A DNA stretch of 37,704 bases, from contig CAJVYQ010000053.1 of NCBI GenBank assembly GCA_913009825.1, positions 1 through 37,704 on the forward strand, written 5' to 3'. Source of the stretch: an uncultured Deferribacteres bacterium. Lineage in GTDB: Bacteria > Zhuqueibacterota > JdFR-76 > DREG01. Positions 1 to 36,090 of the stretch are shown here, piece by piece. The notes beneath the pieces were generated by a model. It ran no database searches. It saw only the letters and a list, made by a program, of their open reading frames with translations, and was not told the DNA's origin. Numbering within the stretch: position 1 is the stretch's first letter; each line of letters begins with the position of its first letter. The position numbers and the translations under genes were made by a program.

Positions 1-41
1 GTCTCCTGCTGTTTGTGCGCCTGAAACCAAGTCCGTTAGCA
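1..41 (+). other. partial attC-like site (3' half)
   Basis: The window opens inside an attC-like site. Its 3' core box GTTAGCA lies at 35-41. The preceding bases (CTCCTGCT, GTTTGTGC, CCGTTAGC) match the 3' half of the site ending at 1099 (GCCTGCT, TTTTGTGC, CCGTTAGG). Only the right half is present. It would close the cassette to the left and start the toxin-antitoxin cassette at about 36. Confidence 0.5.
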
Positions 42-163: not shown

Positions 164-418
164 ATGTCCGGAAACACATGGCAATTACAAGACGCAAAAA
201 ATAAATTTAGCAATCTTGTTAATAGCGCTCAAAAAAATGGACCGCAATTTGTTACTAAACATGGTAAAGAAGCTGTAGTAGTTCTTGCATTTGAAGATTA
301 TAAAAAATTATCAAAACCAAAAACAGATTTATATAAGTTTTTTCAGAAATCACCTCTTGCTAAAGTAGAGTTGGAAATTGAGAGAAATAAAGATATGCCA
401 AGAGAGATCGATTTATGA
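164..418 (+). CDS. Phd/YefM-family antitoxin
   Basis: An 84-aa antitoxin that would bind and neutralise the PIN toxin encoded directly downstream and repress the shared promoter. The N-terminal half has the Phd/YefM fold signature: WQLQDAKNKFSNLV, then GPQFVTKHGKEAVVVLAFEDYKKL. The charged C-terminal tail (about residues 50-84) is the usual toxin-wrapping region. An AAGGAG ribosome site at 151-156 supports the ATG at 164. Its stop overlaps the toxin start (ATGA, 415-418), indicating translational coupling. The gene is AT-rich like its neighbours and lies in an integron-type cassette. Confidence 0.88.
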   Translation: MSGNTWQLQDAKNKFSNLVNSAQKNGPQFVTKHGKEAVVVLAFEDYKKLSKPKTDLYKFFQKSPLAKVELEIERNKDMPREIDL

Positions 419-849
419 AATATCTACTTGATACTTGTGTGATCTCAGAACTTATTAAAACAAAACCTAATAATAATGTAGTCAATTGGATTAAAAAGAA
501 CAATGAGCAAGATTATTTTCTGAGCAGTCTAACTTTTGGAGAAATTCACAAGGGAATCGTAAAATTATCGGACAAATCAAGAAAAGACAAATTGCACCAA
601 TGGGTGGATCATGATCTGATGGAAAGATTTAGGAACAGAATAATTCCCATTGATATTAATGTGGCAAAGATTTGGGGGCAAATTCAGGGAAGGGGCGAAC
701 TTGAAGGCAAACCGATGCCGGCAATTGATAGTTTAATTGCAGCTACCGGACTTTTTTATAACTTAATTGTGGCAACACGAAATATTTTAGATATGCAACC
801 AAGCAAGGTAGTCTTACTAAATCCCTGGGAATCAGATTTTAAAAAATAG
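415..849 (+). CDS. PIN-domain toxin (VapC/FitB-like)
   Basis: A 144-aa PIN-domain ribonuclease, the toxin of the pair. It starts MKYLLDTCVISELI with the first acidic metal ligand at D6 and an E at position 12. A second acidic site is in FGEIHKGI (near residue 43), and the third cluster is PAIDSLIAATG (near residue 105) followed by ATRNILDM. These match the PIN active site that binds Mg/Mn. PIN toxins cleave RNA, often tRNA or rRNA; the target here is unknown. It overlaps the antitoxin by 4 bases. Pairing with a Phd-type rather than a VapB-type antitoxin is common. All active-site positions look intact. Confidence 0.88.
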   Translation: MKYLLDTCVISELIKTKPNNNVVNWIKKNNEQDYFLSSLTFGEIHKGIVKLSDKSRKDKLHQWVDHDLMERFRNRIIPIDINVAKIWGQIQGRGELEGKPMPAIDSLIAATGLFYNLIVATRNILDMQPSKVVLLNPWESDFKK

Positions 850-925: not shown

Positions 926-982
926 TTGTAGTAGATTGACCGTTCTTGAACTAAGATGGGCGTTCGTTGCCCCGAATGGATG

Positions 983-1099
983 GCTTTGACACAAAAAGCT
1001 GATGGTTTTTTGGACTTTCAGTTCGGTTTGGTTCAATTTCATCTTTTCTAAAACGATTGTCGCCTGCTTTTTGTGCAACTTAACTGCCAGCCGTTAGGC
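983..1099 (+). other. attC-like integron recombination site
   Basis: The 3' core GTTAGGC (1093-1099) fits GTTRRRY. ACACAAAAAGC near 990 pairs with GCTTTTTGTG near 1067, giving the arms of an attC fold. The 5' core is degenerate (GCTTTGAC near 983). The internal sequence (AAAAAGCTGA, TTTGGA, TTTCAG, TTTGGTTCA) is shared with the site at 7696-7797, so these are two copies of one attC family. Confidence 0.55.
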
Positions 1100-1230: not shown

Positions 1231-1593
1231 ATGACTATACCAGAGAACGAGATTCACTATCTCGAAATCGTAACACCGGATGCCCAATCTGCGCGTGACT
1301 TATACAGTCAGGCGTATGGCTGGCGCTTTGAGGACATGGCGCCCGAGTTGGGAAACGCGTTCGCAGCCTCTCTACACAACGGCTCACTTTGCGGTATTCG
1401 AGCTCTGATGCACACTCAAGAGAAGCCGACGGTTCGAACCTACATTCGAGTGGCGGATATCCAATACTCCCTCCAAAGGGCTGTGGAATTGGGCGCCACA
1501 GTTGCCCTTGAGCCTACAGAGATTTCGGGACGAGGAATAATCGCCATCTATCGGTACGGCGGAATTGAGCAGGGGATTTGGCAGGTTCCATGA
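1231..1593 (+). CDS. VOC superfamily (glyoxalase/bleomycin-resistance fold) protein
   Basis: A 120-aa single-module VOC protein. It begins ENEIHYLEIVTPDAQSARDLYSQAYGW, the usual beta-alpha-beta start with a possible metal ligand (His or Glu) in strand 1. It ends with a GGIEQGIWQVP strand. VOC proteins bind a divalent metal and act as lyases, isomerases, dioxygenases or drug-binding proteins; no substrate is visible. AAGGAG at about 1217 supports the ATG. The gene is clearly more GC-rich than its neighbours, and its stop is 6 bases before the attC 5' core. This is typical of a small cassette ORF acquired from another source. Confidence 0.8.
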   Translation: MTIPENEIHYLEIVTPDAQSARDLYSQAYGWRFEDMAPELGNAFAASLHNGSLCGIRALMHTQEKPTVRTYIRVADIQYSLQRAVELGATVALEPTEISGRGIIAIYRYGGIEQGIWQVP

Positions 1594-1599
1594 AATACT

Positions 1600-1665
1600 G
1601 CCTAACACGCAGATGCACCTGACGGTCCGCTACGCGGCCCGCAGGTGATCGGCAGATAGTTAGCA
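1600..1665 (+). other. attC integron recombination site (66 bp)
   Basis: This is the clearest attC in the window. The 5' core GCCTAAC (1600-1606) fits RYYYAAC and the 3' end is GTTAGCA (1659-1665). Between them, a GCACCTG arm pairs imperfectly with CAGGTG, around a GTCCGC-TACGCGG central stem. Layout and length match classical short attC sites. It is GC-rich, unlike the attC sites on either side, so this cassette differs in origin. Confidence 0.75.
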
Positions 1666-1719
1666 TCTTCGATATATTGCAACAAAGAAAATGCTTCTAA
1701 CAAAACAAGGAAATATACC

Positions 1720-4700
1720 ATGGGTTATTATCAAAAACACATTAGTATTCCGATTATCTTAAGTATGTTATTTTTTCTGAAGATCTCAGTAAATTCACAA
1801 ACTACAAGCTGGTTCAGTAACGGACCGTCTGGGGGTTATGTAAATTGTGTGTCAGTATCAAAATCGAATCCCAATATTGTATATATAGGCACAAAGCAGA
1901 GCATATATAAAAGTGAGGATAAGGGTAAATCATGGATAAAAACCGGTTTTAGGGATTATGAAATAAGGAGCCTAAAAATCTCACCTATATCATCCGATAT
2001 TGTTTTTGCTGGAACGTATGAAAAAGGATTTTGGAAAACTAGTAATGGAGGAGTGGACTGGGTCTTTAAAGGGCTTTCAAATAATACAATAAACTGCATT
2101 ACTGTTGATCCAAATGATCCTAATAAAATTTACTTTGGCAGTGGCAACCAGATGAAGTGGGGAGGATGTGGAATTTTTAGGAGCACCGATGGTGGGGTAA
2201 CTTTTGATCCGCTAATTGAATGGACAGCCGGTGATTACGTGGAACAGATTAATAGCATTTTTATTGATCCAGATAATTCCGACCATATCTATGTTGCACG
2301 TGTCGCAAGTTCTGACTATGGATCTTTTTTTTACAGCACTGATGGTGGTACAAATTGGATAAGTAAAAGAATGACAACATCAAGCTCTGAGGGAATAATA
2401 TATGTTGCAGTGGCAAGAGATTCAGTCGGACAAAAAATAGTGTATGTAATGGCGAAGTCGGCTTATGATCCTTGGGCCAATCCAAGTCTCTATAAAACAG
2501 CAGATTTAGGTGATAACTGGGAAGAGGTTGCATGTCCTTATACTTCTACTTATGATCCCGATGTTTTTATGATTGACCCCAATAATCCCAATACAATTTA
2601 TACTGGGGTACGATCTTCCGTTAACCAAATACTAACTTATAAAACTGATCAAAACCAGTGGGCTGTTATACCAAGAACAGGATTGCCCTCAATAAATTCT
2701 ACGTGTATTGACATATCAACTGAAACAAACCCAACAATCTATCTCGGAACTTCCTATGGTGGGATTTATAATTTTACCACCGGTGTTTCATCTTATTGGT
2801 CCCAAATTGTCAGTGGATTAAATGAAACATACATTAGTGATATAGCTGTGCTCCCCTCCTCACCAGATTTAGCATACGCGTGTGTAAAAGATGAATACGG
2901 ACTATTTAAGACACTTGATGGTGGTGTCAATTGGAATTGGCTTACGACCTCTAAGCCTGATCTTCTAGCTATTGATCCTCAAAATCCATCAACTTTATTT
3001 GCTGCCGAAGGTGATCAGGATGGGAGTGATTACTATATTTATAAAAGTATAAATGGGGGTTTGGGCTGGCAGCAGATAAAATTCTTTGGCTGTACTGGAA
3101 ACGATTGTAGCACTAAGCTTACAGATATCTTGATCCATCCAACTAAGTCAAATAATATTTTAATTGCAACTCAAATGCGATGGAATAGCTCTTTAGGTTT
3201 ACATGGATTTGGAACAGTTGCCAGAACAATTGATGGTGGTAATAGTTGGGATCAATTATTAAACGTTTCATCATCGGCTTTAGCAATAGATCCAAATAAT
3301 CCGGATATCATTTATTCTGGAAAACAAAAATCGGGGCAAATATGGAAAATTGAAAATGCTTGGGGAGTACGAAATGCAACAGAGATAACACCTTCGGAAG
3401 GGATGGGTAATATTACTGACATCGAATTGGATAACAGTTCAAATGTATATGTATCAACCGAGTCAGGTTTATGGAGATATAATGCAGGCAATTGGACAGC
3501 ATTAACATTGCCCTATATAGACATAAAATCATTAGCAATTGATCGAGATATTACACCAAATACGATATATGCAGGTACCGGGGACAATGGAGTATTTATT
3601 TCCAATGACGGAGGTACAACCTGGAATGTTTGGAATTACGGTTTGAAGAATTTTGCAATTACAAAATTGAAAATTGGTGGGTTAAAAGTTTGGATAGGAA
3701 CTGAGTATGGAGGTGTCTGGTGCCGTAATACTCCTAATTCGGTTACAACAGAATATGATCTTCTATTTACATCTTTGGCAGATATGAATTATGCAAAATA
3801 TGGTGCGGGATATACTTTCGATGGAAATTATATCTATTCTATTTGCGGTGGACTTGGCGAGTTACCGTGGATCTCAACAAGCGTAGAAAGATTTAACCTT
3901 GGAAATAATTCTTGGACTGAATTTGTTACGGATCTTATTCCGAGAAGGTATTGTTCTGCTGAATACGTTGCATCTCAGAAAAAGATATATATTTTCAATG
4001 GAGACACTTATACAAATACGTCATATACGGATACAGTGGAAATTGTTGATGTTCAGACTGGCGATCTTTCTTATAGTGCAACAAATCCCTATCCAGTTGA
4101 AAATGGTGGGTCGGCTGTTTGGCATGATAAAGTATATTTATTCGGTGGGAGTAATTCCAATGGTTTTTCTAATCGTCTTTATGAGTTCGATCCTCTTACA
4201 AGCAACTGGACAAGGTTACCCGATATGCCGGAAGCTAAGCAGACCAATGGTGAGATTATTAATGGTGTCCTATATGTTTTTGGGGGTTACAGTGGTTCAG
4301 TTTCAAAACGAATAGATGCTTACAATATTCAAAATTCAACATGGTCATATTTAGGCGATATGCCGGTTGGAATATCGGCACATGCAACTACTAAATCAGG
4401 GGAAAATATATTTATTGTCGGATCATATGATGATATAAAATTTTTGGCAGTATATAAAACAGAAACAAATAATTTTACCCAATTAAGTTCTAATATGATT
4501 GGTAGAAGGCATGCAGGGGCAAGTGTTGTAAGAGACAATTTGTACATATTCGGAGGAAATCAGCCTTCTACAGTACTAAAAAGTTTAGAATATTCTGATA
4601 TAATTGTATCAGTACGTGAACAAATGAATAATGAATCACCAAAAGAATATGCACTTTCGCAAAACTACCCAAACCCATTTAATCCATCAACAACAATCCA

Positions 4701-4905
4701 CTACTCTATACCGGAGCAGAGCAATGTAACTCTCGAAATCTTTGATATTCTGGGTAGAAGAGTTAAAATACTTGTGGATGAACATAAAAACGCTGGTAAT
4801 TATAAAATTGAGTTTAAATCCCAAAATTTATCTGGCGGAATATATTTCTACAGAATAAAAGCAGGAGAATTTTCGGACATGAAGAAAATGTTATTGCTAA
4901 AATAA
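1720..4905 (+). CDS. secreted Asp-box/Kelch propeller protein with type IX secretion tail
   Basis: A 1061-aa exoprotein. Residues 1-26 are a Sec signal peptide ending VNSQT. Residues of about 30-680 hold many sortilin/BNR-type Asp-box repeats (STDGGVTF, STDGGTNW, TLDGGVNW, TIDGGNSW, SNDGGTTW), which form beta-propellers. Residues of about 680-965 hold Kelch-type repeats (VYLFGG, LYVFGG, LYIFGG with trailing W). Residues 978-1061 are a Por secretion-system sorting tail starting LSQNYPNPFNPST and ending KKMLLLK. It is therefore probably exported by type IX secretion and kept at or released from the surface. There is no catalytic signature; binding or adhesion is plausible. The gene fills one 3.55-kb cassette. 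The sorting tail is closely similar to that of the next gene. Confidence 0.85.
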   Translation: MGYYQKHISIPIILSMLFFLKISVNSQTTSWFSNGPSGGYVNCVSVSKSNPNIVYIGTKQSIYKSEDKGKSWIKTGFRDYEIRSLKISPISSDIVFAGTYEKGFWKTSNGGVDWVFKGLSNNTINCITVDPNDPNKIYFGSGNQMKWGGCGIFRSTDGGVTFDPLIEWTAGDYVEQINSIFIDPDNSDHIYVARVASSDYGSFFYSTDGGTNWISKRMTTSSSEGIIYVAVARDSVGQKIVYVMAKSAYDPWANPSLYKTADLGDNWEEVACPYTSTYDPDVFMIDPNNPNTIYTGVRSSVNQILTYKTDQNQWAVIPRTGLPSINSTCIDISTETNPTIYLGTSYGGIYNFTTGVSSYWSQIVSGLNETYISDIAVLPSSPDLAYACVKDEYGLFKTLDGGVNWNWLTTSKPDLLAIDPQNPSTLFAAEGDQDGSDYYIYKSINGGLGWQQIKFFGCTGNDCSTKLTDILIHPTKSNNILIATQMRWNSSLGLHGFGTVARTIDGGNSWDQLLNVSSSALAIDPNNPDIIYSGKQKSGQIWKIENAWGVRNATEITPSEGMGNITDIELDNSSNVYVSTESGLWRYNAGNWTALTLPYIDIKSLAIDRDITPNTIYAGTGDNGVFISNDGGTTWNVWNYGLKNFAITKLKIGGLKVWIGTEYGGVWCRNTPNSVTTEYDLLFTSLADMNYAKYGAGYTFDGNYIYSICGGLGELPWISTSVERFNLGNNSWTEFVTDLIPRRYCSAEYVASQKKIYIFNGDTYTNTSYTDTVEIVDVQTGDLSYSATNPYPVENGGSAVWHDKVYLFGGSNSNGFSNRLYEFDPLTSNWTRLPDMPEAKQTNGEIINGVLYVFGGYSGSVSKRIDAYNIQNSTWSYLGDMPVGISAHATTKSGENIFIVGSYDDIKFLAVYKTETNNFTQLSSNMIGRRHAGASVVRDNLYIFGGNQPSTVLKSLEYSDIIVSVREQMNNESPKEYALSQNYPNPFNPSTTIHYSIPEQSNVTLEIFDILGRRVKILVDEHKNAGNYKIEFKSQNLSGGIYFYRIKAGEFSDMKKMLLLK

Positions 4906-4929
4906 TTATATAAATGGTAAGTTTGGTAG

Positions 4930-4955
4930 GATGGGTTCGTCTCTTTGAACCCATC
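4930..4955 (+). terminator. hairpin downstream of the propeller gene
   Basis: GATGGGTTC (4930-4938) and GAACCCATC (4947-4955) form a perfect 9-bp stem with an 8-base loop, 24 bases after the stop codon. Only a short T-run follows, so intrinsic termination is plausible but not certain. The segment GTTTGGTAGG-TG-GTTCGTC recurs downstream of the next exoprotein gene (about 7535-7555). Homology between the two genes thus extends past their stop codons. Confidence 0.45.
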
Positions 4956-5073
4956 ATTTGGGCAGTAAAAGGACGATACAAATACGCTCGCGCAGGATTT
5001 GTCACCCATGTGCTTGGCTCATCAGGTAATCCTGTGCGGAATAAATGAGTAGGGATTGCATCCCGCAAACATT

Positions 5074-5218
5074 GCTTAACATTTGCATTCAGTCGGATTG
5101 AAACCGCCGAAGTTTTTACAACATTTTGAGACGAATAAAGTGTTCAGGTCATTTTCAATGTTAATTTTATGCGGTTTCAACCGCTGATGCCTTTGTTCTA
5201 GCCGCAACGCCGTTATAT
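5074..5218 (+). other. attC-like integron recombination site (145 bp)
   Basis: The 5' core GCTTAAC (5074-5080) fits RYYYAAC. The 3' core is GTTATAT (5212-5218), a relaxed GTTRRRY. GCATTCAGTCGGATTGAAACC near 5086 pairs with GGTTTCAACCGCTGATGC near 5173. The left arm has three extra bases that have no partner. Such extrahelical bases are the hallmark that directs integrase to the bottom strand of an attC. The length falls in the long, VCR-like range. Confidence 0.65.
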
Positions 5219-5248
5219 GCTATAAAAACTTACTAACTGGAGGTTAAA

Positions 5249-7486
5249 ATGAAAACATTTCTAAGTGTCATAATTTCCCTTCTTTTATTGAATGTCGCAA
5301 AGGCTAAAATCATTCATGTCCCAGGAGACCAACCAACTATTAAAGCTGGAATTGCTACTGCTATAGAAGGCGATACGGTTTTAGTACAGCCAGGTAAGTA
5401 TGTAGAACATATCTCTTTTAACGGTAAGGGCATAGTTGTTGGTTCGCTCTTTCTTACCACTCGTGATACTTCCTATATTTCTCAGACGGTCATTGATGGC
5501 GACACCAGCGGAAAAGTGGTATTTTTCATTAGTAATGAAGTGAAGACTTCGATTCTATGCGGGTTTACAATACAGAATGGTTTGGGCGGAGTTTTTTGCT
5601 TTAAGTCATCTCCGACAATTACTTATTGTACAATTAGCAGTAATTCGACTATCGATACATTAGAAAACGGGAAAGGAGCTGGGGGTGGAATATATTGTGA
5701 ACATGCATCTCCTACAATTTCCTACTGCACAATTTATGGTAATACGGCATATGGATACTTTGCTTGGGGTGGCGGAATTTATTGCTGCCTCAGTTCCAAA
5801 CCCGAAATAACTCATTGTATAATAAGTAACAATTCTTCAGTTCCATATTATTTTGCAACTCTGGGTGGTGGCATTTATAGCAGAGAAAGTTCACCGCGTA
5901 TCCTTAATAGTCTCATCACTAACAATAAATCTTCCATGGGTGCCGGTATGTATTGCTATTGGTATGACAATACGGAAGTGATTAATTGTACTGTTACTGA
6001 AAATATAAATTCAATACACAGTTCTACAGTGAGTATTGATGGACACTCTTCAATAAAAATAGCTAATTCCATAATTTATGGAAATACAGGAAACTCCGAC
6101 GTCGCAGTAAATGATGTGTTCAGTTCCATAAAATGCTATACCTCAGATATTGGAACCGGTTACTCGGGAGGCACAAATATTAGTTCCAATCCATTATTTA
6201 TAGGTAGCAGTGATTACAGACTGCAAGCGGCGAGTCCTTGTATAGACGCAGGTAACAGTTTGTGGGTTGGTTGGGATAGTGATTTAAATGGTAATCAGAG
6301 GCTTTGGGACGGCAATGGTTCTGGGGTAGCATATGTTGATATGGGTGCATATGAATACGGTTCTCAATCCGTTTCTCCTCTGTATTTAACTCATAACACA
6401 GGCGATTTTAAAATGTCGATTTTCTGGGATGGTAGTATTGGGCATCTCAGTTCAATGACGGCGCTTGGCGAAGGATGTGAATTTAAAAACAACTCAGATG
6501 CACTGTACGCGGGAGGATTGATCTTCGGAACGAAATCTGCGGGTTATGTAAACGGTAATCAGGCCAGCTTAGGTATTGTAAATGATTTCATTAATATTGA
6601 ATCAATACACACCGTTACATCAATGGACCCTGAGATTGACTATATTTCGGAGACGGCCTATAATGATAACAATGCAGCAGCTCCTTATGGAGTATCTGTC
6701 AGTCAAGAAGCCCTTTCCAAAAGCGGTGATGAATTTGTAATCTTAAAATTCGGATTTACTCCTACATCTTCTTCATTGAAATACTTTTACGCCGGAATAT
6801 TTGCCGATTGGGATGTTGGTGCAGCCGATGGTTATTCTAAAAACCTTGGGGGGTATGATCAATCAAGAAACCTTGCATATCAATATATTAATGACAGATC
6901 CCCAGACCCAAATTACTATGGTATAGTTGCTCTGAGCGGTATGGCAGGCGCTAAGATTGCTGCTGATACTGGTGGAGTGACAATGCGTGAAACAGCATTA
7001 CAAAGAATATCTACTTTTGAGAATGATACAATCACAGAGATTGGTGATTACAGAATGTGGATTGGATCTGGACCCTTTACTCTAAAACAAGGAAATACTA
7101 AATTTGTATATTTTGCATTTGTTGCCGGGACGGATCTTGCTAATCTACAGGCTAATGCTGATGCTGCGGCACAAAAATATCAGCATATAATTACTGATGT
7201 TGACGAAAATGAAGTTTTGCCTACACAATTTGGTTTAAGTCAGAATTACCCCGATCCTTTTAATCCCACGACACTCATAAATTATCAGATACCGAAGGGG
7301 TCTAATGTAATTCTCGAAATCTTTGATGTTTTAGGTAGAAGGGTTAAAGTACTTGTTGATGAATATAAAAACGCAGGTAATTATAAAATAGAGTTTAACG
7401 CCAAAAGTTTATCAAGTGGAACGTATTTCTACAGAATAAGAACAGGAAAATTTTCGGCTGTGAAGAAAATGTTATTGATAAAATGA
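5249..7486 (+). CDS. secreted right-handed beta-helix protein with type IX secretion tail
   Basis: A 745-aa exoprotein. Signal peptide residues 1-19 (ending AKA) are followed by IIHVPGDQPTIKAGIATA, the usual start of parallel beta-helix (PbH1, NosD-like) proteins. Repeats of the type SPTITYCTISSN and GGGIYC run from about residue 95 to 300 and form helix coils. A spacer ends near 370 (DMGAYEYG). Residues of about 375-650 form a domain I do not recognise. Residues 660-745 are the sorting tail (LSQNYPDPFNPTT to KKMLLIK), nearly the same as in the upstream exoprotein. Beta-helix proteins often bind or cleave polysaccharides, but no lyase or hydrolase motif is evident. The ATG follows GGAGG by 6-7 bases and lies 31 bases after the upstream attC. 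Confidence 0.83.
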   Translation: MKTFLSVIISLLLLNVAKAKIIHVPGDQPTIKAGIATAIEGDTVLVQPGKYVEHISFNGKGIVVGSLFLTTRDTSYISQTVIDGDTSGKVVFFISNEVKTSILCGFTIQNGLGGVFCFKSSPTITYCTISSNSTIDTLENGKGAGGGIYCEHASPTISYCTIYGNTAYGYFAWGGGIYCCLSSKPEITHCIISNNSSVPYYFATLGGGIYSRESSPRILNSLITNNKSSMGAGMYCYWYDNTEVINCTVTENINSIHSSTVSIDGHSSIKIANSIIYGNTGNSDVAVNDVFSSIKCYTSDIGTGYSGGTNISSNPLFIGSSDYRLQAASPCIDAGNSLWVGWDSDLNGNQRLWDGNGSGVAYVDMGAYEYGSQSVSPLYLTHNTGDFKMSIFWDGSIGHLSSMTALGEGCEFKNNSDALYAGGLIFGTKSAGYVNGNQASLGIVNDFINIESIHTVTSMDPEIDYISETAYNDNNAAAPYGVSVSQEALSKSGDEFVILKFGFTPTSSSLKYFYAGIFADWDVGAADGYSKNLGGYDQSRNLAYQYINDRSPDPNYYGIVALSGMAGAKIAADTGGVTMRETALQRISTFENDTITEIGDYRMWIGSGPFTLKQGNTKFVYFAFVAGTDLANLQANADAAAQKYQHIITDVDENEVLPTQFGLSQNYPDPFNPTTLINYQIPKGSNVILEIFDVLGRRVKVLVDEYKNAGNYKIEFNAKSLSSGTYFYRIRTGKFSAVKKMLLIK

Positions 7487-7695
7487 TATTAAGGAAGAGT
7501 AAGTTAATACTTGCCTCTTGCTTTCTGAGCGTACGTTTGGTAGGGTGTGTTCGTCATTTTATACGTACCATTTAGTTAAGTATCATGTAAAAGCAATTTG
7601 AAAATAAAAATTGACAAGGGGAAAAATGCCAAAAATTATTTAGTTCAGGGCCAGTCAAAAATAATGTGTAAAAAAATGCTAACCAGCGCTTCAAC

Positions 7696-7797
7696 GCCTA
7701 ACAAAAAAGCTGAATGTTTTTGGAATTTCAGGTGGGATTTGGTTCAGTGTTTTTGCTTTCTAAAAACTTTTTCTCCTGCTTTTTTGTTGGGTTAAGC
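7696..7797 (+). other. attC-like integron recombination site (102 bp)
   Basis: The 5' core GCCTAAC (7696-7702) fits RYYYAAC and the 3' core GTTAAGC (7791-7797) fits GTTRRRY. AAAAAAGC next to the 5' core pairs with GCTTTTTT next to the 3' core. Inner GTTTTTGGAA-like bases pair with TTCTAAAAAC. It shares internal sequence with the site at 983-1099. A 65-codon open frame across this site (7598-7795) is not a gene. Confidence 0.62.
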
Positions 7798-7891
7798 GTA
7801 AGATAGTTATCTTTTAAAATATACGCAAAAATATAATTGGTTATGCATGATTATTTTATGATCTTATGCATGATTTTAAAAAAAGAAACAT

Positions 7892-8095
7892 ATTATAAGA
7901 ATAACAATTGATATACCCGAAGATTTGATTAAAGAAGCGATGAGAGTAACCAAGGCTTCCCCCAAAACCGCTTTACTTAAAAATGCGCTTAACAATATAA
8001 TTTAACAAAACATAATAAAATTGCTAAAGAACTATAAAGGAAAAATAGATATTGATATCAATTTAAATTCTATCAGAGACAGAAATGGATATTAG
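7892..8095 (+). pseudogene. decayed VapB-type antitoxin
   Basis: One frame reads MRITIDIPEDLIKEAM-like (7895 onward), then VTKASPKTALLKNALNNII, stop TAA at 8003-8005. It continues in the same frame as QNIIKLLKNYKGKIDIDINLNSI to TAG at 8093. This is the layout of DUF2191-type VapB antitoxins, whose C-terminus has a GKI-D-D motif. Two lesions are visible: the expected ATG is ATA (7895-7897), and an in-frame ochre stop splits the gene. It lies directly after an attC, so it was probably carried in the next cassette. It is recognisable only by hand translation. Confidence 0.6.
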
Positions 8096-8235
8096 TTGAT
8101 AGCTCTGTATGGATTGATTATTCTAAAAGTGGCAAAAATTCCGGAAGATTAGATAGATATATTGATTACTCATGTTTCGCATTAGTTAACCAGCTTAAAG
8201 ACAAGGAAAAGATAAAAGAGAACTATGAGCCCTGA
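8089..8235 (+). pseudogene. truncated VapC (PIN) toxin remnant
   Basis: The frame at 8089 reads ILVDSSVWIDYSKSG, the N-terminal strand of VapC toxins with the first catalytic Asp. It then runs NSGRLDRYIDY before losing similarity and stopping at 8233-8235. The nearest ATG (8085) is out of frame by one base, and the central and C-terminal PIN acidic residues are missing. It overlaps the antitoxin remnant, as in intact vapBC operons. The stop is formed by the start of an inserted GCCCTGAAAGGGC palindrome, suggesting that the repeat or an associated deletion removed the rest. Confidence 0.55.
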
Positions 8236-8303
8236 AAGGGCGGGATAGTCACCCGCCATAGCCATTAATTCATTTGTGTTGTGTATACCGCCCTTTCAGG
8301 GCT
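8228..8303. repeat. REP-like palindrome pair (AGCCCTGAAAGGGCGG)
   Basis: AGCCCTGAAAGGGCGG (8228-8243) and its reverse complement (8288-8303) flank about 44 bases. Each arm is itself nearly self-complementary (CCCTGAAAGGG). The same unit recurs at 14619, 14688 and, inverted, at 14730. Paired palindromes of this form resemble REP/BIME elements mobilised by RAYT transposases, but no such transposase is in the window. Confidence 0.65.
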
Positions 8304-13274: not shown

Positions 13275-14192
13275 TTGAGCATCATTGGCATTGACATCGG
13301 CGGCACAAAATGCGCTGTAATTAGGGCGGATAATGACGGCAGCCCGCAGGAAATTCATCGTTTTGCCACCACCAATTTGGACGAAACGCTGGAGGCGATA
13401 TTTTCAGGAATCAGTGAGCTGCGTCCTGGCGGATCGCCCGTCTTCGGCATCTCCTGCGGCGGGCCGCTGGACAGCAAAACCGGAATGATTCAGTCACCGC
13501 CCAATCTGCCCGGGTGGGATAATATCCCGATTGTTAAAATGATGACGGATCGTTTTGGCGGCCGCGCTTATCTGATGAATGACGCCAACGCCGGCGCGCT
13601 GGCGGAATGGCGTTTCGGCGCCGCGCAGGGTTTCAAAAACATCCTGTTTTTTACCCACGGTACCGGCATGGGAGGAGGACTTATTTTAGATGGCCGTCTT
13701 TACGAAGGCACAACAGGCGATGCCGGGGAAGTCGGTCATATCCGTTTGGATAAAGACGGGCCGGTTGGTTACGGAAAAGCCGGTTCGTTTGAGGGATTTT
13801 GCAGCGGCGGCGGCATCGCAAAACTTGCCGGGTCGGCAGGATTTCACCCGGCCGATAGCGGTTCGAAAGAAAATGTAACAGCCCGGGATGTGGCTTTGGC
13901 CGCCGAAAAAGGGGATGAGGAGGCACTGGCAATTCTGTCGCTGAGCGGCAGATATTTAGGGCAGGGGCTGGCCATTTTAATCGATATCTTAAATCCGGAA
14001 ATTATTGTGCTGGGCAGCATCTATTCCCGCGCCGGTAAATTTCTTGAGCCGGCCATGAGAAAAGCGCTGGCAGAGGAGGCGCGGTCACGGTCATTACAGG
14101 CATGCAAAATTGTGCCGGCAAAACTTGGCGAAGACATCGGTAATTATGCGGCCGTATCCATTGCACTGTACAAAGAGGGTAAGTTGGGATGA
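13275..14192 (+). CDS. ROK-family sugar kinase
   Basis: A 305-aa ROK protein without an N-terminal HTH, so a kinase rather than a repressor. It starts IGIDIGGTKCAVI (phosphate-1 loop), then LMNDANAGALAEW with the conserved catalytic-base Asp, THGTGMGGGLILDG and GDAGEVGHI. The usual Zn-binding CxCGxxGCxE cluster is altered: after GHI the sequence is GKAGSFEGFCSGGG with one Cys. ROK kinases phosphorylate glucose, fructose, GlcNAc or ManNAc; the one used here is unknown. The start is TTG, with AGGAG about 8 bases upstream. It overlaps the truncated phosphodiesterase frame by 4 bases (ATGA). Confidence 0.85.
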   Translation: MSIIGIDIGGTKCAVIRADNDGSPQEIHRFATTNLDETLEAIFSGISELRPGGSPVFGISCGGPLDSKTGMIQSPPNLPGWDNIPIVKMMTDRFGGRAYLMNDANAGALAEWRFGAAQGFKNILFFTHGTGMGGGLILDGRLYEGTTGDAGEVGHIRLDKDGPVGYGKAGSFEGFCSGGGIAKLAGSAGFHPADSGSKENVTARDVALAAEKGDEEALAILSLSGRYLGQGLAILIDILNPEIIVLGSIYSRAGKFLEPAMRKALAEEARSRSLQACKIVPAKLGEDIGNYAAVSIALYKEGKLG

Positions 14193-14618: not shown

Positions 14619-14810
14619 AGCCCTGAAAGGGCGGCATATAAAAGCTCAGGGCAACGCCCTGAGTAAAAAGAAAACAGCATTTTCACAAGCCCTGAAAGGG
14701 CGGCATACACAATCCAAAAGGACTATTTCGCCCTTTCAGGGCTTATATTTCTCATTTATTCTACTCAGGACGTTGCCCTGAGCTATTATATGTCACCCCG
14801 TTGGGGTGAT
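14619..14810. repeat. cluster of REP-like palindromes
   Basis: AGCCCTGAAAGGGCGG occurs at 14619 and 14688, and its complement GCCCTTTCAGGGCT at 14730. Between and after them lie CTCAGGGCAACGCCCTGAG (14645-14663), CTCAGGACGTTGCCCTGAG (14764-14782) and GTCACCCCGTTGGGGTGAT (14792-14810). These are separate, strongly self-complementary units packed into 190 bp. An open frame across them (14590-14781) is not a gene. Confidence 0.7.
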
Positions 14811-35761: not shown

Positions 35762-36090
35762 GTGCGCTACGAAACGTACAATAACCAGTGGGTTAAAATC
35801 CCACCGTGGCAATTCGCCGTTCCCCACGAAGCCATGGGCAGGTTATGACCGGTGACGGTCATGGCTAAGCTGCCCTATCAATGCCGAAGCATCGGCAGAG
35901 ACGACAAGCAGGCTGCTGTTAAGGCCTCTCGAAACGAAGAATAAGTGTCCAGTCCCGCTGTGGCGGGAGAAAACCGCACGTACGGAAGGGGAAGAGGGAG
36001 TGCAGATGACGCCTGAGAAAATAGCCTGAAGTAGTGCCCGAAAGGATCGCACGAAACAGTCGGCTAAATCAGCACCCTACTCGATCGGTT
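35762..36090 (+). ncRNA. probable group II intron remnant (5' ribozyme part)
   Basis: It begins GTGCGCTACGAAACG, like the GUGYG 5' end of group II introns. A dense series of hairpins follows: GTGGG-TTAAAAT-CCCAC, CGTGG...CCACG, ATGACCG-GTGA-CGGTCAT, TGCCG-AAGCA-CGGCA and CCCGC-TGTG-GCGGG. Next come GCACGTACGGAAGG and GTAGTGCCCGAAAGG, as in the region leading to a reverse-transcriptase ORF. No RT frame and no domain V follow, so it would be a truncated copy. The minus-strand frame 35843-36052 is not a gene. Flanking GCAGAG/CTCTGCG repeats (35715-35760 and 36119-36145) suggest it sits in another repeat. 35557-35761 holds no gene. Confidence 0.5.

Follow-up and report, generated by a model that had tools for sequence, protein, structure and literature searches.

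KSB1-type bacteria carry integron arrays that, on the reading we favor at a probability of roughly 0.7, collect modular secreted proteins, which ordinary recombination, partly within a common C-terminal tail, then remixes. That large cassettes with such tailed genes exist is close to certain, and the proteins of the two cassettes analyzed here are very probably mosaics. The example is a stretch of 37,704 bp (the window), which is the entire contig C53 of a KSB1-type draft genome (G000; 5.1 Mb, 123 contigs). Every genome used was a draft assembly.

The array consists of an attC site, a toxin-antitoxin pair, an attC, a glyoxalase-like gene, an attC, a 1061-aa exoprotein gene, an attC, a 745-aa exoprotein gene and a final attC (Table 1). 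The sites are tandem and in a single orientation, and the cargo genes begin just past R'. The upstream part of the array lies on contig C56, the last 127 bases of which are identical to the first 127 of the window; the attC there sits after a 646-aa ORF. Measured from R' to R', cassettes 2, 3 and 4 span 566, 3538 and 2609 bp, with the ORF starting ~60 bases (cassette 3) and ~50 bases (cassette 4) past R'. A preliminary description of this DNA had proposed two true attC-bounded cassettes at 1660-5212 and 5213-7791, each with a single giant secreted gene. Location of the attCs by covariance model or finder, together with strong covariation, bore this out: the boundaries were correct within ~16 bp, and each cassette holds one long ORF (1061 and 745 aa). 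Its statement that most cassettes are under 1 kb did not hold in this genome, where 20 bracketed cassettes have a median size of 1078 bp.

Table 1. Features of the cassette array in the window (positions on the window; strand as read).
Feature	Position	Strand	Basis
First attC, 3' part, R' GTTAGCA; full site C56:35701-35832	1..41	+	127-bp exact contig overlap
Cassette 1 cargo: Phd-type antitoxin and PIN-domain toxin	164..849	+	Domain matches
attC, R'' degenerate, R' GTTAGGC	971..1099	+	78.7 bits with R2
Cassette 2 cargo: glyoxalase-like protein, slightly below Pfam cut-off; cassette 1093-1658	1231..1593	+	
Short-type attC, R'' GCCTAAC, R' GTTAGCA	1600..1665	+	Stem-aware finder
Cassette 3, 3538 bp	1659..5196	+	R' to R'
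1061-aa exoprotein: propeller, Kelch, T9SS type A tail	1720..4905	+	Pfam/NCBIfam
Module A, Sortilin/BNR-type propeller; 80% DNA identity to G012:C57:4599-6545	1807..3735	+	
Module B, Kelch; 81% DNA identity to G039:C7:10168-9310	3753..4601	+	
T9SS sorting tail, cassette 3	4640..4905	+	
Shared post-stop motif, first copy	4922..4941	+	
attC separating both large cassettes, R'' GCTTAAC, R' GTTCTAG	5074..5203	+	61.5 bits with R2
Cassette 4, 2609 bp	5197..7805	+	R' to R'
745-aa exoprotein: beta-helix (module C), module D, T9SS type A tail	5249..7486	+	Pfam/NCBIfam
Module D; with tail ~79% DNA identity to G012:C57 from 6544 on	6363..7225	+	
T9SS sorting tail, cassette 4	7226..7486	+	
Shared post-stop motif, second copy	7536..7555	+	
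Last attC of the array, R'' TGCTAAC, R' GTTATCT	7677..7812	+	103.7 bits with R2

The attC assignments rest on covariance models and a stem-aware finder. Model R1, in which eight aligned G000 sites define the R and L stems, identified 45 sites in G000 at E <= 0.01. The sites at 971-1099 and 5074-5203 were absent from its building set and were found genome-wide at E values of 2.7e-11 (61.2 bits) and 2.9e-7 (45.7 bits), respectively. The site at 1600-1665 was called by our own finder and not by the covariance model, scoring 43.5 against a best of 40 in five shuffles of the region. A regular-expression scan for R''/R' pairs gave mainly chance matches and was replaced by these methods. The sites carry R''/R' boxes, and their L''/L' stem has its extrahelical base in L''. 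Across 46 sites, 85.3% of cells were paired, compared with 64.4% after shuffling. The covariation score of 0.498 compares with 0.161 in shuffles and no more than 0.098 with the partner column slid, a wide margin even though an alignment fitted to the structure biases covariation in its favor. Because they follow stop codons and form stems, the sites might be read as terminators of transcription or some other kind of hairpin downstream of exoprotein genes; the box sequences, the extrahelical base, the covariation and the finding of only two significant sites in 212 kb of sequence from 20 further loci (19 selected by protein homology) make this highly improbable.

A full integron integrase is encoded elsewhere in the genome, at C88:11442-12383 (TIGR02249, 471.5 bits; cut-off 265), and an attC at C88:13143-13273 (118.2 bits with R1) lies 760 bp upstream of it. 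Since C53 and C56 contain no integrase match, and the integrase thus does not adjoin the array, we class the array as CALIN-type and not as a complete integron. A weak Rfam match suggests that C88 ends in the first part of a group II intron. At the ends of C88 and C23 and the starts of C99 and C73, the contig breaks just past an attC at an apparent group II intron end, with one apparent intron-end sequence common to C88 and C23 and another to C99 and C73. An identical N-terminal piece of a second integron-type integrase is found at C21:2-136 and C111:2-136, both at contig starts. Solitary attC-like sites are dispersed in the genome outside arrays (for example on C7, C22, C28, C30, C33 and C40). 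An array of ten attCs at G000:C18:70001-80874 (L054) includes a bracketed 3.47 kb cassette encoding a 742-aa protein (glycosyltransferase 25, GH16 and a weak sulfotransferase match) and a sugar transferase.

By eye, decayed toxin-antitoxin remnants appear to lie at 7850-8250, 3' of the last attC, and positions 9067-37483 hold sugar-related genes (GH31, alpha-L-rhamnosidase, BNR repeat, ROK, MFS and N-acylglucosamine 2-epimerase). A group II intron D1-D4-4 match at 35786-35927 is followed by an ORF that gave no reverse transcriptase match, and an Acido-Lenti-1 RNA match lies at 14619-14663 on the minus strand. The segment 37505-37704 resembles L027 at ~13568-13772 in inverted orientation, with inverted ends, and by eye is perhaps a small mobile repeat. 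Scans for promoters (42 versus 33.4 in shuffled sequence, sd 5.1) and terminators (6 versus 5.6, sd 2.7) stayed near the shuffled level, and plasmid searches with the glyoxalase-like and 1061-aa proteins returned no matches.

The two exoproteins have unrelated bodies, as had been proposed: a Sortilin-type propeller followed by Kelch repeats in one and a beta-helix in the other (Pfam, NCBIfam). Both C-termini match Por_Secre_tail/TIGR04183 above cut-offs, and both N-termini look leader-like, resembling typical signal peptides by eye. Given 96 sorting-tail matches and the presence of SprA in the same genome (876 bits, including neighbors in frame), export of the tailed cassette proteins by the type IX secretion system (T9SS) is plausible; SprA exceeded the cut-off in 80 of 82 genomes of the phylum. 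Structure prediction from two-row alignments was poor, with a mean pLDDT of 34.7 for module D with its tail and of 47.4 for the 1061-aa protein, in which the propeller part (~residues 40-660) alone had many blocks at 60-80.

The two tails are closely related, at 70% amino acid and 79% DNA identity over 247 bp, for which the earlier wording of 'nearly identical' was too strong; the longest alignable DNA match to the tail elsewhere in the genome is 59 bp. The similarity of the DNA past the stop codons proved real (0 of 500 shuffles aligned as well), and the post-stop motif occurs genome-wide in just two copies, both here. A common tail and motif would be expected if one cassette had been duplicated and one body replaced later, but the attC types of the two differ and similarity ceases 5' of the tail region, so that we consider this origin quite unlikely.

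Searches with the cassette proteins revealed relatives that combine these parts differently. Among the best 80 matches in the genome collection, the closest relative of the tails lies in an attC array of genome G012, on a contig (C57) whose blast match statistics are identical to those of JABMRT010000010.1 (candidate division KSB1). There, a single gene of 1119 aa (L095:4302-7661, in a cassette at 4262-7837) shares 80% DNA identity with cassette 3 along 1960 bp and, from the end of that match, 79% with cassette 4 along 1147 bp. The fused protein consists of module A of cassette 3 followed by module D and the tail of cassette 4, with a differing N-terminus (residues 1-93). Module B has its nearest relative elsewhere: its match of ~850 bp in genome G039 starts right after module A and stops short of the tail, and the G039 gene is a non-cassette gene on a contig with no attC. 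In a search of 82 genomes with the 1061-aa protein, four, including G000, reached 1e-40; its module A and module B parts have one close relative each, that of module A, the sole one at E <= 1e-40, being in the attC array. Module D with its tail has many relatives at 30-41% identity.

The tail of the fused gene is itself composite. At 61 informative sites it changes near L095:7486 from cassette-4-like (29:2) to cassette-3-like (8:22), a change point that none of 20,000 permutations equaled. This bears on an alternative origin of the fusion, by one in-frame deletion between adjacent cassettes ordered A-B-tail and C-D-tail. Such a deletion would be expected to produce A-D-tail, and both junctions fall in similar short linkers. 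A single event does not give the cassette-3-like second half of the tail, however, and the fused gene also differs in its N-terminus and has an attC unlike that of cassette 4; mainly because of the change point, we rate this origin as unlikely.

The module junctions lie within coding sequence, away from attC, and the integrase alone therefore cannot have swapped the modules. Cassette mobility can move whole genes; module exchange needs another type of recombination. The proposal of a cassette route for exchanging surface modules on a common tag is thus supported as regards exchange on related tails and unsupported as regards attC as the point of exchange. The attCs of the window cassettes gave no blastn match at the fused relative, and because the flanking attCs of related cassettes differ, whole-cassette transfer between genomes lacks support. 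Nearly all relatives of modules C and D that we examined lie outside cassettes. Of 20 fetched neighborhoods, 19 were chosen by homology to the proteins, and a single one of these 19 (L253) had a significant attC. As the relatives are mostly without attC, module exchange also occurs outside cassettes. Separate genes closely related to the one and the other protein did not occur together in any other genome among the 82, and a syntenic arrangement of both genes without attC, which would have spoken against the preliminary description, was not found in relatives across the same set. In G039 the module B gene is followed by a tailed beta-helix gene with no attC, the latter just 27% identical to that of the window.

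The modules were compared with a core gene. Each of G000, G012 and G039 represents a family of its own, and the rpoB core domain shows 65-67% protein identity between the same genome pairs. Fourfold sites are identical at 63% (module A), 51% (D) and 60% (B) versus 35%, 35% and 34% in rpoB; AT-rich composition lifts the chance level at such sites somewhat, by our estimate not to the module values. The modules are far closer than rpoB, and modules A, B and D have therefore moved horizontally across families.

Large tailed cassettes are a recurrent class in the phylum, well exemplified by the window, which is no freak. attCs of this type were detected in 41 of 82 phylum genomes (E <= 1e-5); absences in these scans are not firm, because each scan scored a limited number of candidates in a genome (attC, 41; the two proteins, 9 and 13). 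We rescanned neighborhoods from 16 genomes besides G000 (106 sites) together with G000 loci (56 sites) for attCs, and searched them for tails with a profile built from 21 G000 tails. A same-strand tailed gene ended just 5' of attC at 14 of 163 sites (1600-1665 included), and a converging tailed gene was found at one. Bracketed cassettes numbered 66, with a median of 1569 bp; 23 exceeded 2 kb and eight held a tailed gene, in five genomes (G012 had three and G000 two, while G034, G045 (weak) and G066 had a single one each). Any attC that escaped detection would divide a cassette, and the sizes are therefore maxima. Requiring at least 35 bits at both sites left 46 cassettes, of which 16 exceeded 2 kb and seven were tailed. 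Other arrays thus hold cargo of this kind: counting the window pair, there are seven better-supported tailed cassettes and one weak one. Other tailed genes beside attC again have propellers, Kelch, beta-helix, FG-GAP or PKD bodies. By eye, IS3-like transposase genes lie at L095:1060-2515 within a tailed Kelch cassette of G012.

Tailed genes were also enriched next to attC. They made up 14 of the 115 genes whose ends lie no more than 250 bp from an attC versus 28 of 699 other ORFs at the same loci (p = 0.001), and 11 of 112 (p = 0.012) once the window pair and the doubtful L141, with its poor attC boxes (CGGCAAA/TCTGCCC), were dropped. The count excluded loci L015-L021 and L031, mostly chosen for their tails, as well as ORFs below 80 aa, ORFs running off an end and ORFs below 150 aa within attC. 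The R' of L055 is off consensus, and the L119 cassette depends on a 25-bit site.

Ordinary chromosomal domain shuffling of T9SS exoproteins, with the cassette setting incidental among ~100 such genes per genome, is a serious contender at somewhat below even odds. The abundance of tails in the genome and the position of module B and most module C and D relatives away from attC speak for it, as does the rearrangement of P. gingivalis surface proteins, as described in the accessible text of PMC5266723. It does not explain why tailed genes are over-represented directly 5' of attC, or why both the best tail relative among the matches listed and the sole module A relative at E <= 1e-40 sit in an attC array. 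We therefore prefer that arrays collect modular secreted proteins and that ordinary recombination remixes them. The leader would carry the exoprotein across the inner membrane and the tail would route it to the T9SS for export and attachment, leaving propeller, Kelch or beta-helix bodies that may bind or process something outside the cell. IntI-type recombination at attC would gather, order and exchange whole cassettes; separately, homologous or short-homology recombination would replace domain-sized pieces within genes. One crossover region would be the conserved tail, where an in-frame join gives a new body an export tag that already works. A stronger version, in which KSB1 arrays are a workshop where tailed genes are assembled in one orientation, the tail is the recombination handle and the product is already a mobile cassette, is tentative, with the odds against it; a causal role of the arrays in module shuffling is likewise doubtful.

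Integrons are mainly associated with small cargo, resistance genes among them. In the present case the cargo is entire multi-domain surface proteins, in a phylum that the records examined represent by metagenome-assembled genomes alone. This links cassette capture and domain shuffling, both of them engines of diversity, to cell-surface display. The parts recur in other arrangements in related bacteria, which suggests that the cassettes contribute to reshuffling what cells display outside. The loci offer a concrete set for asking whether integrons speed secretome evolution.

The array resembles known integron arrays in attC architecture, tandem order, single orientation, toxin-antitoxin neighbors and a full IntI in the genome. 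Signal-peptide cargo is also common in such arrays: according to the accessible parts of two reports, it accounts for 13.2% of archaeal cassette proteins (PMC9668308) and 11.6% of Xanthomonas cassette proteins (PMC12444791). A literature search by title and start of abstract, with subscription journals largely outside its coverage, found no paper combining integron cassettes with T9SS-tailed cargo. The array differs from known ones in its larger cassettes, its multi-domain T9SS-tailed exoprotein cargo and its mosaic cargo genes. The proteins share with T9SS type A substrates a start that looks leader-like by eye, a variable body and a Por_Secre_tail above cut-offs, but they are encoded in attC-bounded cassettes and their modules are common to several families at ~80% DNA identity. 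In the accessible text of PMC5266723, domain exchange likewise diversifies surface proteins of P. gingivalis, apparently within one species, whereas here it spans families and takes place in integron cassettes.
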